NCBI GenBank assembly: GCA_017937195.1
Contig: JAGBEA010000022.1
Location: forward strand, 1-37,117
DNA: 37,117 nt
Reading direction: 5' to 3'
From: Oscillospiraceae bacterium
Lineage (GTDB): Bacteria > Bacillota > Clostridia > Oscillospirales > Oscillospiraceae
This document shows positions 18,373 to 24,342 of this stretch, in pieces. Position numbers and translations under genes: made by a program. How positions within the stretch are numbered: the stretch's first letter is position 1; the number at the start of each line of letters is the position of its first letter. The notes under the pieces were generated by a model. That model saw only the letters and a list, made by a program, of their open reading frames with translations, was not told the DNA's origin and did not search any database.

Positions 18373-20055
18373 TCAATCAAAGGCGGGCATCAGGCTGTAA
18401 TACTTGCCGGTGCTGGATGCGCCGTGCCAAGTCATATAGCCGCCGGTGTTGCCGGTATCCTCCAGCGCCTCGATCTGATCTGCCACCTGTGTGGGACCGT
18501 AATAGGTATACGGCTCGCGGATGGCGTTATAGCACTGGATCCAGGTGCGCACCACAGCGGGGGATGCCGTTTCGGTCTGGCGCTCGGCCGCCTTGGCGCC
18601 GAAGGCATACATGGTGTCGTAGGGATGCTCCCAGGGCAGCCAGCTGCCGGAGGCGGCATAGTGGTCAGGATAGGGCATAGCGCTGATCACATCCACCACA
18701 TTGCTGATGGCGGGCCAGTACTGGCCGTAGGCGCACACATAGTCCTCGGCACACTCACCGAACACGTCAGCGCTGACATACACGCCGGCAGCGTGCAGGC
18801 GGTCAGCAGCGTACATCAAAAAGCGCTGCACGGCCTGCGCCTTGCTCTCGTTATATGTATTGTGATAGTCGATCTCCCAGTCCTCATAGTACCAGGTGCC
18901 GTCAGGGAAACGGACATAGTCAAACTGGATCTCGTTGAAGCCCATCAGCTCCACTGCCTCCAGCGCCAGATCCACCTTGTACTGCCAGATAAAGCGGCTG
19001 TACACGCTGGGCCAGTACATACCCACGATCTTCATAGGATCGCCGGTAGCCGTGCTGGCAATGACATGCTCGGGGTGATCTTCTGCCATATTGGGGTCGT
19101 TGAAAGCAGTGATGCGGCCGATGACATAGTAACCGGCATCCTTGATCTTCTTCACCGCCGCCTGATACTCCGCCAGCGTGTTATAGGCGCTTTCATAGGC
19201 GGAGGGAGAATACTTCTGCATGGTGGGGGAGTCGTAGCCGATGGCGCCGCCGTCCTGAATGTCGATGACGAAGGCGTTGATGCCGCAGTTATCGGCGATA
19301 TCCAGATAGGTGTCCAGCTCGCCGATAAACTCCACATTCAGATACAGCGCCTTCACCTTATCGGGCATCACATTGTCGGTGAACTTGCCCTTCTCGCGGG
19401 GGAAGTAGTCCAGACCCGCCGCGTCGCCGCCGCCCCAATCGTCACCGCGATCCACATGGAGCTGATAGGCGGCATCATCGTACTGCGCCTTGGCGTCACT
19501 CTCGGTGCGGCACAGATAGCCGGCACGGACATAGCCCTGCGCCTCGCCTGCCTGCACGATATAGCGGGCGATCACGCCGTCAGCATCCATACCGTCCCAG
19601 CCGACCACCGTCAGCGCCTGTCCCTTGTCCACCAGCGCGCCGGCTTCAGCGCCGGTCACATCGGTCAGGTTCACGGGGGTGCGGACATACATGGTCTTGG
19701 TGGTGACGATGGCGTTTGCGTCCTCGGTCAGATTCTCTTTCTTGACCCACGCAAAGTCATCCTCACCCATCACAAGGCGCACCAGACCGGGATAGTCCTC
19801 ATCCTCTTCCTCCACCACATAGGTCACCGCCGTGCCGCGCACCAGCGATTCACGCACGGTTCCCTCCTCGGTGTACAGCTCCGCCGTTTCAAGGTCGGCG
19901 GCAATATATCCGGGTGCCGTCACCAGCGGACGGGGCCAGAAGATGATGGCCAGCACCACAGCCACGACCACTGCCGCGGCAATGCCCACGATCAGCGGTC
20001 CGCGCTTTTTCCTGTGAGTCCGCTCCACACGGGGGGTATCTTTCAAGTTTTCCAT
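18373..20055 (-). CDS. Membrane-anchored putative glycoside hydrolase (DUF4015-like)
   Basis: The product has 560 residues. A basic N-terminus (RTHRKKRG) leads into one transmembrane helix (19-41) with the bulk outside. Residues of about 60-190 look like SH3-type or variable surface modules (MYVRTPVNLTDVTG, ALTVVGWDGMDADGV). The C-terminal half resembles the DUF4015/GHL TIM-barrel group: VKALYLNVEF, INAFVIDIQDGG, YYVIGRITAF, FNEIQFDYVRFP and VSADVFG. The Asp in QFDYVRFP and the Glu or Asp near SADVFG are likely catalytic. Substrate unknown; the position next to wall-directed genes suggests a surface polysaccharide. Confidence 0.82.
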   Translation of the reverse strand: MENLKDTPRVERTHRKKRGPLIVGIAAAVVVAVVLAIIFWPRPLVTAPGYIAADLETAELYTEEGTVRESLVRGTAVTYVVEEEDEDYPGLVRLVMGEDDFAWVKKENLTEDANAIVTTKTMYVRTPVNLTDVTGAEAGALVDKGQALTVVGWDGMDADGVIARYIVQAGEAQGYVRAGYLCRTESDAKAQYDDAAYQLHVDRGDDWGGGDAAGLDYFPREKGKFTDNVMPDKVKALYLNVEFIGELDTYLDIADNCGINAFVIDIQDGGAIGYDSPTMQKYSPSAYESAYNTLAEYQAAVKKIKDAGYYVIGRITAFNDPNMAEDHPEHVIASTATGDPMKIVGMYWPSVYSRFIWQYKVDLALEAVELMGFNEIQFDYVRFPDGTWYYEDWEIDYHNTYNESKAQAVQRFLMYAADRLHAAGVYVSADVFGECAEDYVCAYGQYWPAISNVVDVISAMPYPDHYAASGSWLPWEHPYDTMYAFGAKAAERQTETASPAVVRTWIQCYNAIREPYTYYGPTQVADQIEALEDTGNTGGYMTWHGASSTGKYYSLMPAFD

Positions 20056-20185: not shown

Positions 20186-20215
20186 TGGACAATCCCACGC
20201 GCCGCGTGCTATACT
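20186..20215 (+). promoter_or_regulatory. Promoter of the dockerin/cohesin operon
   Basis: TGGACA (20186-20191) is 18 bases before TATACT (20210-20215), which has a TGC extension (TGCTATACT). It is divergent from the promoter at 20089-20117. Confidence 0.65.
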
Positions 20216-20262: not shown

Positions 20263-22677
20263 ATGATGAAGCTCTTGAAAAAACACTTACGCGGTGCACT
20301 GTGTCTGCTGCTGGCAATCTCCCTGCTGGGCGGCACGCTGCTGTACGCCTTCGGCACCGCCGCCGACGATTTTGAAGAGACGATGCTGGGCGAGCTGAGC
20401 AAGGACTTTGAGTCCGGCGACCCGGGTACCATCTCCTCCGGTGACGGCGACCCCGGCGGCAAGTCCTACGGCGCGTTCCAGTTCGCCAGCAAGCACGACG
20501 GTCCGCGGCAGTTTTTCTACTGGTGTCTGGGCTCGGAGCGCAGCCCCGCCTATCAGGCCATCGGCGCAAGACTGCGCCAAGCCTACATAGATGATACCAG
20601 CTCCACCGGCTACGGCGATGTCTTTGACGCCGAGTGGCGTGCCATTGCCGAAGAGCAGCACGACACCTTCCTTGCCGCCCAGCGCGACTATGTGGAGGTC
20701 AGCTACTATCAGCAGGCGGTGGACGATATTGCCGAGGCATATCCCGGCTTTGACATCAGCAACTACAGCATCGCCCTGCGCAATGTGATCCTCTCCCGCG
20801 CCGTGCAGCACGGCAGCGGCGGCGTGGTCAGTGTGATGGACTATGTGTTCGCCAAGCTGGGCGGCTTCAAAAATCAGCCGGAGACTGAGCTGATCCAAGC
20901 CATCTATGAGGAGAGCGGCGAGGTGCGCGAGCCCCGTGCTGACCGGGATGAAGAGGTGATGGAGGGCAGCAGCGCCCAGAAGTACGGCGTGGCCGGTAAG
21001 GTGATGAGCTGGTTCTGGGGCAGCAGCGCCGATGTGCAGATCGGCGTGTATATGCGCCTGCGCATCAACGAGCCTGCCATGGCACAGAATATGCTGGCCA
21101 GATATGGCTATGCAGACGCCCCCATCCCTGAGGGCGTGTACCGCTTCTCCCCCGAGAGCAACGCCAACCTCTCCGTGGTGGCAGACGGCGACTCGCTGAC
21201 CTTGAACACCACCGCCAAGGAAAAGGCACAGCAATTCCGTTTTACTTACTATGCCAGCGGCTATTACATCATTACCAATGAACAAAACGGTCTGCGGCTC
21301 ACCGCCAATACCGACGGCTCTCTGACCATGACCGCGCCCACCGCCGACAACAACCAGATGTGGAAGCTGGAGAATCTGAACAGCGGCTTCTCTGTAAAAA
21401 ACCGCGCCACGGGTCACTATCTCTCCACCGCCAACGCCGCGGCAGGCGATGCGGTGACAGGCGGCACGGATGCGGTGCAGTGGCAGATCGCCAAGTCCGG
21501 CTCCTCCTGGACGCTCAGCGGCGCCACCTATCCCACTTACGCCAATTTCCTGCGCGAAGGCTACGGCTTTAACCTGCGCGGCACCCTGCGCTGCGTGGAT
21601 GCCATTGCGGATGTCACCGTCTCCGTTGTCAACCATCAGGGCGGCGTGGAGATGTCCGTCTCCACCGGTCCTTTGAACAGCCGCGACTTCGACCTCTCTG
21701 AGGTGGACGGCGACATTGATTTCGGCGATCTGTCCGCCGGCAGCTACACATTGGTGATCTCCGCCACTTCTGTGGGCGAGAGTGACAACACCTATCGCAT
21801 AGAGAGTAAATTCTTCGTGTCTGACGGCAAGTATCTCATCTCCTTTGACGCCTGCGGCGGCACCGCCTCCGCTGAGACGATGACCGTGCTGGCAGGTCAG
21901 GCGTACGGCAAGCTGCCCACTGCCGCCAAGGACGGCTACGTCTTCATCGGCTGGTTCACCCAGCCCGAGGGCGGCACGCAGATCACCGCCAACTCCACCA
22001 CCGGCGCGTCCAATCAGGTGCTCTACGCCCAGTACGCGCAGGCGTTGACTTATCAATTTTTGAACTATGACGGCTCTGTCTTTGCCGAGGGTCAGCTGCG
22101 CGCCGGCGATGTGATTCCGCTGCCCGCCGGCACCCCCGTCCGCCCTGCAGACGCGGTATATTACTACGCATTCGCAGGTTGGGACGGCTACAGCGAAGGA
22201 ATGACCATCAGCGAAAATGTGTCCTTCAAGGCTCTCTTTGATGCCGTAGCCGTGGGCGCGATGCCGGAGATGGTGACGGAAGTCTACCGCATCGACGGCG
22301 AATGGCTGCGCGCCATCGCGCTGGGCACCAAGGCGGATACGCTGCACGAAAATTTGGCGCCCGGTGAGCATATCACCATCACCAGGGGCAGCGCCACCGT
22401 CAGCGATACAGCTGCCACCGGAATGACCGTGGAATACGCGCTGGACGGCATCACCGTGCAGAAGCTGACCGTTGTGGTCACCGGCGACACAAACGGCGAC
22501 GGCAAATATACTATCACCGATATGGTGCAGATTCAGGCCCATCTGCTGGGCCGCTCCACGCTGAGCGGCGCTGCACTGCAGGCCGCCGATCTCAACGGTG
22601 ACGGCGCGGTCACCATCACCGATATGGTGCAGGCCACATCCGCTATGCTGGGCAAAACCAGCATCAAGCCCCATTGA
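20263..22677 (+). CDS. Secreted lysozyme-like multidomain protein with C-terminal dockerin
   Basis: The product has 804 residues. A signal anchor (KLLKKHLRGALCLLLAISLLGG, split here as a basic start and hydrophobic core, 3-24) precedes a domain at about 38-285 with FESGDPGTIS (49-58) and GGKSYGAFQF (65-74). These match the VgrG3 C-terminal lysozyme-like domain, Glu50 being the likely catalytic acid. Next come a ricin-type beta-trefoil (about 290-413), an Ig-like region (420-520), an InlB B-repeat (524-592) and a second similar repeat (596-662). A type I dockerin (740-804) has two Ca-binding loops, DTNGDGKYTITD and DLNGDGAVTITD. The start is uncertain between ATGs at 20263 and 20266; the ribosome site is weak. 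The cohesin gene follows 18 bases later. Confidence 0.87.
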   Translation: MMKLLKKHLRGALCLLLAISLLGGTLLYAFGTAADDFEETMLGELSKDFESGDPGTISSGDGDPGGKSYGAFQFASKHDGPRQFFYWCLGSERSPAYQAIGARLRQAYIDDTSSTGYGDVFDAEWRAIAEEQHDTFLAAQRDYVEVSYYQQAVDDIAEAYPGFDISNYSIALRNVILSRAVQHGSGGVVSVMDYVFAKLGGFKNQPETELIQAIYEESGEVREPRADRDEEVMEGSSAQKYGVAGKVMSWFWGSSADVQIGVYMRLRINEPAMAQNMLARYGYADAPIPEGVYRFSPESNANLSVVADGDSLTLNTTAKEKAQQFRFTYYASGYYIITNEQNGLRLTANTDGSLTMTAPTADNNQMWKLENLNSGFSVKNRATGHYLSTANAAAGDAVTGGTDAVQWQIAKSGSSWTLSGATYPTYANFLREGYGFNLRGTLRCVDAIADVTVSVVNHQGGVEMSVSTGPLNSRDFDLSEVDGDIDFGDLSAGSYTLVISATSVGESDNTYRIESKFFVSDGKYLISFDACGGTASAETMTVLAGQAYGKLPTAAKDGYVFIGWFTQPEGGTQITANSTTGASNQVLYAQYAQALTYQFLNYDGSVFAEGQLRAGDVIPLPAGTPVRPADAVYYYAFAGWDGYSEGMTISENVSFKALFDAVAVGAMPEMVTEVYRIDGEWLRAIALGTKADTLHENLAPGEHITITRGSATVSDTAATGMTVEYALDGITVQKLTVVVTGDTNGDGKYTITDMVQIQAHLLGRSTLSGAALQAADLNGDGAVTITDMVQATSAMLGKTSIKPH

Positions 22678-22695
22678 TAGCAGGTGGTATCCGTT

Positions 22696-24306
22696 ATGAA
22701 AAAATGGTTGTTTCACATTTTACTTCCCTCTCTGCTGGCAGCAGTACTGATCCTTGCGCCGCAGCGCGCAGAGGCCGCCGGCTCCAGCTTTGAAGGTGAT
22801 GATGAACTGCGTGCCGGCGACCGCGTGACAGTTACCTACTATGTCAGCGGCGACAATCTTTACGGCATCACCGCCAGTATGGATTATGACAGTTCCAAGC
22901 TGGAGTGGCTGAGCATTTCCTGTGAGCTGGGCGGCGGTTGGGAACTGCAGGAAAATGGCAGCGCCCACATTTTGCTGAACGATTCTGATATGTCCGACCC
23001 CATTGACGGCTGGGAAGCTGCCTTCTCCGTTACCTTCCGCGTCCGCAGCGGTGTATCCGCCGGTGCGACGGTATCCGCCTCTGTCAGCGGCACCGCCTCC
23101 GACGGCAGCAGCGACAGCTCGCTGGGCACCGCCTACTGGGAGGCGGAGATCCTGCCCCCGCTGTCTGACGATGCCGAGCTGGACGATCTGTGGTGCGATG
23201 AGGCCGACATCGGCTTTACCGGCGGCAGCGAGTACAGCATCGAGGTTCCCTACGATGTTACGGAGCTGGAGCTGGATTGGGAGAAATCCCACAGCGGCGC
23301 ATCTGTGTCCGTTTCGGGCAACAGCTTGTCGGTAGGCTCCAACACGGTGACACTTACCGTTACGGCGGAGGATGGCACCGTCCGCCGCTACTATCTCTAT
23401 GTCACCCGTGGGCAAGATCCCAATTATAAGCCCGGCAGCGATGCCGCGCTGTCCGCGCTGTCCGTATCCGGCGGTCAGCTGAGCCCCTCGTTCCACCCCG
23501 ATGTGACGGAATATGTGGTGTATCTGCCCTATGAGGCGGTGGAGTTTTATGCCAGCGGCACTGCCCGCGACAGCAAAGCGATCGGTGTGAAGCAAAGCGA
23601 TCGGCGCATTCTCGCTTTAGGTGAAAATGTACTGCGCGTAATCTGTACGGCAGAGGACGGCACCACCACAAAGGAGTACCGCATCACCGCCATCCGTATG
23701 CCCCAGTATGCCGGAACCGTTCCCGCTCAACCCTCCAAACCTACTACGACGCCTGACCCCACTCCCGAAAAGGGTTGGAGTCTCCCCGAAACGCTGGAGC
23801 TGCCCTATGTGGGTGAGGTGGAGCTGCTGTGGGTGGTAGTTGCCGCAGGCGTGCTGCTGCTCCTGCTGCTGGTGCTTTTGCTGTTGATCGTCTGGTTTGC
23901 CGGTAAGCAGCACGGCAAAGCTGCGGCTGCCAAGGCGGCTGCCGAAAGCAGCGCGCCGGCAGAGGAACCGATCGCGGCGGAGGAAACGCCTGCAGATCCT
24001 GTGGAAATCGCAGAAGAAACTCCTGCTGTTGAGACGTCTCCTGCCGAGGATGTACCTGCTGAGGCTCTCCCCGTTGAGGAACCCTCTGCAGAGGAAACTC
24101 CCAAAGACAACGTTGTTGAGGAGATCTCTCCTGCCGAGGAAATTCCCGCTGAGGAGCCTGCCATTGAAGAAGCTCCTGCGGAAGCGCCGCCTGCGGAAGT
24201 TCCCGCTGAAGACGCGCCTCCTGCTGAGGAAGCGCCCACAGAGGAGGAACAGGATGTCAGCCGTATGACACTCTCCCAGCTGCTGGACGAGATCCGTAAT
24301 ATGTAA
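22696..24306 (+). CDS. Membrane-anchored cohesin protein with cadherin-like domains and acidic tail
   Basis: The product has 536 residues. The ATG at 22696 follows AGGTGG by eight bases; an in-frame GTG at 22684 lies over the ribosome site. A signal peptide ends near AEA (25-27). Residues 30-155 look like a cohesin: AGDRVTVTYYVSGDNLYGI, a YDSSKLEWLS strand, a VTFRVRSGVSAGATV strand and LGTAYWEAEI. Two cadherin-like beta-sandwiches (157-238 and 248-333; PF12733) end in EDGTVRRYYLYVTRG and EDGTTTKEYRITAIR. A Pro/Thr linker, a transmembrane helix (376-401) and a Lys-rich inner flank follow. The last 115 residues are Pro/Ala/Glu repeats, ending in an amphipathic MTLSQLLDEIRNM. It should dock the upstream dockerin protein. 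Confidence 0.85.
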   Translation: MKKWLFHILLPSLLAAVLILAPQRAEAAGSSFEGDDELRAGDRVTVTYYVSGDNLYGITASMDYDSSKLEWLSISCELGGGWELQENGSAHILLNDSDMSDPIDGWEAAFSVTFRVRSGVSAGATVSASVSGTASDGSSDSSLGTAYWEAEILPPLSDDAELDDLWCDEADIGFTGGSEYSIEVPYDVTELELDWEKSHSGASVSVSGNSLSVGSNTVTLTVTAEDGTVRRYYLYVTRGQDPNYKPGSDAALSALSVSGGQLSPSFHPDVTEYVVYLPYEAVEFYASGTARDSKAIGVKQSDRRILALGENVLRVICTAEDGTTTKEYRITAIRMPQYAGTVPAQPSKPTTTPDPTPEKGWSLPETLELPYVGEVELLWVVVAAGVLLLLLLVLLLLIVWFAGKQHGKAAAAKAAAESSAPAEEPIAAEETPADPVEIAEETPAVETSPAEDVPAEALPVEEPSAEETPKDNVVEEISPAEEIPAEEPAIEEAPAEAPPAEVPAEDAPPAEEAPTEEEQDVSRMTLSQLLDEIRNM

Positions 24307-24308
24307 AA

Positions 24309-24342
24309 AAAGCTCCCTGCTCTTGCATGAGCAGGGAGCTTT
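24309..24342. terminator. Bidirectional terminator
   Basis: A 14-bp stem (24309-24322 with 24329-24342, AAAGCTCCCTGCTC arm) lies between the cohesin gene and the convergent truA. Confidence 0.88.

Follow-up and report, generated by a model that had tools for sequence, protein, structure and literature searches.

An adjacent dockerin-cohesin gene pair as a probable one-to-one membrane tether for a putative wall hydrolase in an Oscillospiraceae bacterium

Cohesins and dockerins are almost automatically read as parts of cellulosomes. Here we describe two neighbouring genes in a stretch of 37,117 nucleotides from an Oscillospiraceae bacterium (the window, which is one contig, JAGBEA010000022.1, of a 1.61 Mb genome that is 92% complete): gene A, for a secreted VgrG3-like lysozyme-fold protein with a C-terminal dockerin, and gene B, for a membrane-anchored protein with one cohesin and cadherin-like domains, referred to below as the socket. 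Single cohesins as surface anchors and non-cellulosomal cohesins are already known. We take OlpA of Clostridium thermocellum to be a single-cohesin cell-surface anchor, and the glycosidases of C. perfringens themselves carry cohesins and pair with one another. ScaE of Ruminococcus flavefaciens is a single-cohesin surface anchor fixed by sortase (PMC2930009), R. albus probably uses its single cohesin to anchor isolated enzymes with dockerins (PMC6118326), and SLH domains provide another fixation of cellulosomal anchors (PMC5817068). These anchors, in which one cohesin on a surface protein holds dockerin-bearing proteins, resemble the arrangement proposed for the window's pair. They serve many plant-fibre enzymes or a scaffoldin and are fixed by sortase or SLH domains, whereas in the window's pair the cargo comes from one adjacent gene, the anchor is a transmembrane helix and the enzyme is probably a wall hydrolase. 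The C. perfringens glycosidase cohesins (2vo8, 2jh2, 2w1n) are the best structural matches of the gene B cohesin and share a non-cellulosomal use, but gene B encodes a non-enzymatic membrane socket. The Limousia mucinolysome is also a gut bacterial cohesin-dockerin system not aimed at plant fibre, yet it has classical tandem-cohesin scaffoldins and many enzymes where the window has one plug and one socket (PMC12997984). We found no cohesin-dockerin pair for peptidoglycan hydrolases in the literature searched, which had few subscription papers. Apparently new, in that we met no other example, are a one-to-one pairing of adjacent genes with a transmembrane anchor and a lineage-specific tail, the use of wall-type hydrolases as cargo and the exchange of cargo on a conserved socket.

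We consider it fairly likely that the two products form a one-to-one, calcium-dependent tether which keeps a peptidoglycan hydrolase at the cell's own membrane. The enzyme encoded by gene A would be exported and its C-terminal dockerin would dock, in a calcium-dependent manner, on the single cohesin of the gene B product, which a single helix presumably anchors in the cytoplasmic membrane. The ectodomain is short, comprising the cohesin and two cadherin-like modules, and could hold the enzyme near the membrane, within the cell's own wall or on its inner face. Here the VgrG3-like domain would probably act on the peptidoglycan glycan backbone, cleaving it for cell growth or separation, with the lectin and InlB-type modules assisting. 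A cytoplasmic tail with a genus-specific C-terminal motif would probably position the tether from inside.

Genes A and B both lie on the + strand in the same frame, with 18 bases between the gene A stop, which ends at 22677, and the likely gene B ATG at 22696, and a strong hairpin closes the two-gene unit. Searches of the window's genome detect a single dockerin at E <= 0.001 and, even with the limit relaxed to E <= 10, a single cohesin. The sole dockerin and the sole cohesin are neighbours, and their adjacency is therefore not chance. A sample of 200 genomes of the family has a dockerin in 91 and a cohesin in 58, some genomes having at least 30 scored dockerins, so that the single pair characterises the window's genome rather than the family. 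Even within the genus, G036 and G187 carry 8 and 3 dockerins, and exclusivity of the pair is thus not general; the "private pair" of the first-pass annotation describes the window's genome but not these relatives. The use of both families in cellulosomes, and the family members with at least 30 dockerin matches, could point to the remnant of a reduced cellulosome. We regard such an origin as highly improbable and rejected it, given one cohesin and one dockerin in a 92% complete genome, no tandem cohesins or carbohydrate-binding module on gene B by Pfam, the recurrence of the one-to-one arrangement in the family and beyond, and the clustering of cargo type by socket clade; no scaffoldin with several cohesins organising several dockerin enzymes was found.

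Conservation of the pair as a unit is the second line of evidence. Among 32 genomes of the genus, the socket gene is present in 29 and a PF21277 protein in 25, exactly one copy each, and in 23 of these 25 the PF21277 gene lies just upstream (within a few kb) of the cohesin gene on the same contig. The two exceptions are G400, where the genes are on different contigs, and G414, which is without a cohesin match. The 23 VgrG3-type pairs that are distinct in sequence all have the dockerin. A TruA-like gene occurs in the examined stretch of 17 of the 32 genus loci (16 of 28 distinct ones) and a DUF4015 gene in 11 of 32; with these recurring neighbours the genus locus often appears to be in the same place, and its inheritance looks vertical. 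For the family, a search of 400 genomes gave 26 near full-length cohesin-cadherin genes, hand-picked from matches at E <= 1e-20 starting before profile position 50, the weaker match G245:C14 (E 9e-11) and the partial G063:C72 being omitted. A dockerin gene lies within 300 bases of 20 of the 26; removal of the profile's own 10 rows, 9 of which have a dockerin, leaves 11 of 16 with an adjacent dockerin gene, which is the fairer figure. Over all loci, 73 of 87 distinct sockets have an adjacent upstream dockerin gene, in a set that was partly chosen, L061-L080 having been picked mostly for the presence of both domains. Seventy of these 73 pairs are on the same strand, 64 of them no more than 31 bases apart or overlapping, and three are divergent (Faecousia type). 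At class level, the socket profile has matches at 1e-20 in 50 of 391 genomes, many in the cadherin part only. A socket-profile search of relatives, from which the best 80 of 146 matches (77 loci) were used, named mostly Oscillospiraceae, Lachnospiraceae and unclassified Clostridia, with many metagenome bins from rumen or gut among them, and included two Pseudoflavonifractor records, An44 and An85, which are cultured isolates with the GH73-like type of cargo. One contig labelled Candidatus Saccharibacteria (L143) also holds a cohesin-cadherin protein with a dockerin neighbour; the label is possibly a binning error.

The docking of the two products is suggested by structure prediction. Because both genes are in one frame, it was possible to model the dockerin, intergenic linker, signal peptide and cohesin as a single chain read through the stops. 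The alignment of 59 rows used 25 of the 27 in-frame pairs (L067 and L143 were left out), and 28 other pairs gave separate rows for 18, L191 and L193 only their dockerin. The chain was modelled with a mean predicted local distance difference test score (pLDDT) of 90.9 and a predicted template modelling score (pTM) of 0.82. Arithmetic from the domain lengths gives an expected pTM of about 0.54 for an undocked pair, and the higher value suggests that dockerin and cohesin are confidently placed relative to each other in the model, i.e. that docking is predicted. Distances between dockerins track those between cohesins more closely than those between cadherin domains of the same proteins (partial correlation 0.55 versus 0.19). 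The top covarying dockerin positions include 10, 17, 18 and 21, which we take to be known recognition positions, and the covariation is suggestive only. The two dockerin repeats are alike, with the same dipeptide at positions 10-11 in 43 of 73 pairs against a shuffled mean of 6.5, a likeness that would fit a dual-binding mode without proving binding.

The gene A protein consists, in order, of a signal peptide (read from the sequence), the VgrG3-like domain, a ricin-type lectin, an InlB-type repeat and the dockerin. By Pfam, PF21277 (VgrG3-like_C) scores 100.8 bits against a cut-off of 27 and Dockerin_1 (PF00404) 39.4 bits against 22.9, and both dockerin loops have D-N-D-D at calcium-ligand positions 1, 3, 5 and 12; over the 73 pairs, position 12 is D in all 73 first loops and in 71 second loops. 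RicinB_lectin_2 and the Listeria-Bacteroides repeat are two domains that the first-pass annotation had left unnamed. Full-length homologues of gene A occur in G036 (40% identity) and G187 (38%). The whole protein from the window, scanned against the genome contigs, gave no match. An NCBIfam scan added nothing useful; its match to CelK covers only CelK's dockerin.

The lysozyme-like domain is closest to the C-terminal muramidase of Vibrio cholerae VgrG3 (4noo, 4nso), with which it shares domain family, fold and an aligned Glu and Asp. Its profile matches 4noo at E 7.1e-19, and its model (pLDDT 88.7, pTM 0.85) finds 4noo and 4nso as best Foldseek matches, with template modelling (TM) scores of 0.68 and 0.70 by target length and 0.54 and 0.55 by model length. 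Unlike VgrG3, gene A is without a spike part: Pfam finds no gp27/gp5-like VgrG core in it, and the protein would be exported by a signal peptide and apparently tethered by its dockerin. The earlier suggestion that a domain familiar from a type VI spike is used here in a secreted protein is supported. E53 and D66 are invariant in all 24 aligned VgrG3-like domains. In the profile alignment E53 falls on the Glu of KYES in 4noo, presumably a catalytic residue in VgrG3, which makes it a candidate catalytic Glu. Peptidoglycan hydrolysis has been demonstrated for VgrG3cp, in a study that tests an Asp, D867, in place of the Glu (PMC9927483).

That the nearest solved relative is antibacterial raises the possibility that the enzyme, whether displayed or released, attacks the walls of other bacteria, for competition or for feeding on wall debris, and the lectin and InlB-type modules could bind foreign glycans. 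We think this rather unlikely, since the neighbour is a membrane socket, the nearest flanks (the DUF4015 glycosyl hydrolase and the tRNA pseudouridine synthase) are not of immunity type, presence in most of the genus suggests housekeeping, and the ectodomain looks too short to extend past a thick wall. Between the wall and the prey or host glycans named in the first-pass annotation, a short membrane-anchored ectodomain would favour the cell's own wall. A second alternative concerns the substrate, which might be a glycan of the host or one resembling chitosan or chitin, for instance from anaerobic fungi. After VgrG3, both the profile (7c6c, 1chk, 4olt) and Foldseek (4olt, 4ily, 7c6c, then weakly pesticin) point to chitosanases, and many relatives come from rumen or gut; but VgrG3 is much nearer in sequence (7e-19 against 0.11), and where such a socket has a GH73-like partner, this partner resembles wall glucosaminidases, so that a substrate other than peptidoglycan is unlikely in our view.

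The gene B protein starts with a signal peptide, which is followed by the cohesin, the pair of cadherin-like domains, a transmembrane helix and finally a tail of about 134 residues. The Pfam cohesin model (PF00963) scores 29.1 bits against a cut-off of 24.1, so that all three profiles expected from the first-pass annotation, cohesin, dockerin and VgrG3 C-terminus, are over their cut-offs. Foldseek places the predicted cohesin nearest to the cohesins 2vo8, 2jh2 and 5nrm (TM up to 0.78 of target), grouping it with non-cellulosomal cohesins of C. perfringens and with cellulosomal ones. Among relatives the domain is less readily recognised: of nine socket proteins scanned with PF00963, only those of L068 and L072 exceed the cut-off, and for three there is no match at E <= 0.1. 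The Pfam model also misses the sockets of G036 and G187, which were assigned by position, by similarity to the window's protein and by the socket profile, in which both are rows; by similarity, L061 matches in the cohesin (4e-4) and the cadherin part (8e-42), L062 in the cadherin part only.

Comparison of the pairs showed that the cargo changes while the socket stays, a point absent from the first-pass annotation. Among the 73 pairs the cargo is VgrG3-like in 23, matches an SH3 plus GH73-like profile in 28 and matches neither in 22, 13 of which run off the examined stretch with their N-terminal part unseen. GH73 autolysins of the 6fxo and 4pi7 kind bind the wall by their own repeats and not by a dockerin; it is these glucosaminidases that the commonest cargo elsewhere resembles. 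A single sequence of the GH73-like region matches 6fxo at E 1e-8, and its profile matches 6u0o (1.4e-15), 4pi7 (Autolysin E; 4.4e-14) and the bifunctional autolysin 6fxo (9.1e-14). Other cargos include a polysaccharide deacetylase that also carries Big_2, a lectin-bearing papain-like protease, and GLUG, Big_3 or LRR proteins. The last of these are large, with 980 to 1965 residues seen in L085, L086, L087, L089 and L090, the cargo of L090 running off the stretch. PF21277 itself was found in 5 of 300 family genomes and in one of 106 genera, the window's own. A quick tree of the 73 sockets requires 6 changes of cargo type, compared with 34.7 under shuffling. The VgrG3-type sockets all belong to a single starred set of 25, and the remaining two members of that set have cargos truncated at contig ends. 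Socket and cargo thus stay associated, and switches are rare. The lysozyme is only one of several cargos on this kind of socket, and we rejected a general reading of the locus as a peptidoglycan module, since relatives carry LRR, GLUG, Big_3 or papain-like cargo.

A further feature, the tail of gene B with its conserved C-terminal motif, had no place in the earlier account. Acidic residues precede the transmembrane helix and lysines follow it; by these charges the C-terminus would be inside the cell and the tail cytoplasmic. A strict DNA pattern, LLx[DE]IxNM plus stop, is present in 12 of 21 genus genomes, with one copy in each, and a looser regular expression ends 26 of 28 distinct genus sockets against none of 59 others (none of 54 when the five cut at the C-terminus are set aside). 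Of the two genus sockets without it, one is truncated at a contig end and the second, L161, departs from it by a single letter. In three members of the genus, G369, G403 and G410 (L171, L207 and L206), the quick tree places the sockets among GH73-type ones, their exact place being unsure because of a long shared branch of 1.35; these sockets nevertheless end in a motif closely similar to that of the genus, and the tail therefore appears to follow the genus and not the ectodomain. Two distant ectodomain and cargo clades in one genus with a similar tail motif are as expected if the tail binds a fixed intracellular partner. It is possible, though we put it forward tentatively and with considerable doubt, that gut Bacillota more generally have a membrane cohesin receptor, encoded after its dockerin cargo, that positions an exchangeable wall enzyme (VgrG3-like lysozyme, GH73-like glucosaminidase or deacetylase) through a lineage-specific tail, whose partner could be, for example, the growth or division machinery. 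The long acidic tail and the motif kept in the genus, also in members with GH73-like cargo, could also suit a signalling receptor in which the cohesin protein reports occupancy or wall state through the tail and the enzyme is the sensor head; but Pfam finds no signalling domain in the tail, which is of low complexity, and we judge such a role very unlikely.

Several observations weigh against a tether for a wall hydrolase. The predicted docking comes from one single-chain model. In the covariation analysis, the top 50 include 24 at recognition positions for the cohesin but 17 for the cadherin control, the cohesin also having more columns (112 versus 88), and the shuffles (mean 8 to 9) break relatedness. 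The lysozyme fold also fits chitosanases, and its TM score to 4noo is only 0.54 by model length, so that peptidoglycan is no more than the probable substrate. In some clades the cargo is not of the wall type (LRR, GLUG, Big_3, papain-like), and the socket as such is thus not wall-specific. The VgrG3-like protein of G414 (L209 1674-4613) has no dockerin match, nor is there a cohesin match on its 4.7 kb contig. Finally, no adjacent dockerin was detected for 6 of the 26 sampled socket genes: contig ends cut two of these, the one in G013 has a neighbour with choline-binding repeats instead, and the three in G373, G255 and G156 are unexplained. Overall, what the first-pass annotation observed, including the domains of both proteins, is confirmed, a structure prediction of the pair suggests docking and the genes are kept together in other genomes, while its interpretation is partly supported.

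Two of these loci are of interest in themselves. In G013 (L072 873-3731, 3832-5376) a GH73-like protein with choline-binding repeats and no dockerin match stands beside the cohesin-cadherin gene, where wall-binding repeats have perhaps replaced the plug. In G373 (L084/L166) a cohesin-cadherin-membrane gene, with no dockerin found in the stretch, is followed by a gene that looks like another membrane-anchored surface protein.

Coordinates are collected in Table 1. Gene A is taken from its first likely ATG, the mechanical open reading frame (ORF) beginning at TTG 20254, and gene B from an ATG where the mechanical ORF begins at GTG 22684. Four promoter-like sites were found in the region against 1.5 expected, so that the evidence for the one upstream of gene A is weak. 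The flanking genes examined, a DUF4015 glycosyl hydrolase, a tRNA pseudouridine synthase and a nitroreductase, are all on the opposite strand. The putative DUF4015 hydrolase (window 18373-20055, - strand) adjoins the pair, is in the stretch of ten other genus loci too, and is possibly a further wall or glycan enzyme.

Table 1. Features of the gene pair and their positions in the window
Feature	Position	Strand	Basis
Promoter-like site TGGACA-18-TATACT, TG before second hexamer	20186..20215	+	consensus match only
Gene A, secreted VgrG3-like lysozyme-fold protein with C-terminal dockerin	20263..22677	+	Pfam, full-length homologues
VgrG3-like lysozyme-fold domain (residues 45-225 of the 20254 ORF)	20386..20928	+	PF21277, E 1.2e-28
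Candidate catalytic residues E53, D66	20410-20412, 20449-20451	+	alignment with 4noo, invariance
Ricin-type beta-trefoil lectin region	21121..21528	+	PF14200, E 9.8e-13, best stretch 325-399; wider bounds inferred
Listeria-Bacteroides (InlB-type) repeat	21832..22032	+	PF09479, E 2.7e-15
Type I dockerin, two 12-residue calcium-type loops (DTNGDGKYTITD, DLNGDGAVTITD)	22468..22659	+	PF00404, E 6.8e-10
Gene B, membrane-anchored cohesin protein	22696..24306	+	Pfam, hydropathy
Cohesin domain	22783..23148	+	PF00963, E 1.3e-6; sole cohesin in genome; Foldseek
Two cadherin-like beta-sandwich domains (PF12733)	23167..23700	+	Pfam, E 2.2e-15; profile matches
Transmembrane helix	23833..23901	+	hydropathy scan
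Pro/Glu/Ala-rich tail ending in TLSQLLDEIRNM (24268-24303)	23902..24303	+	DNA pattern, regular expression
Terminator-type hairpin 3' of gene B	24309..24342	+	-29.1 kcal/mol, z -7.2

The occurrence of a type VI-spike-named domain in an ordinary secreted protein is a caution for annotation, and the 73 distinct adjacent natural pairs, with their varied recognition residues, constitute a resource for work on cohesin-dockerin specificity. "Orphan" single cohesins and dockerins gain a testable function, and the cytoplasmic steering of wall hydrolases through a non-covalent joint becomes a testable idea. The analysis suggests that many gut Bacillota, including those whose genomes have no cellulosome, would use cohesin and dockerin as a one-to-one tether to the membrane, the cargo often being a probable wall hydrolase.

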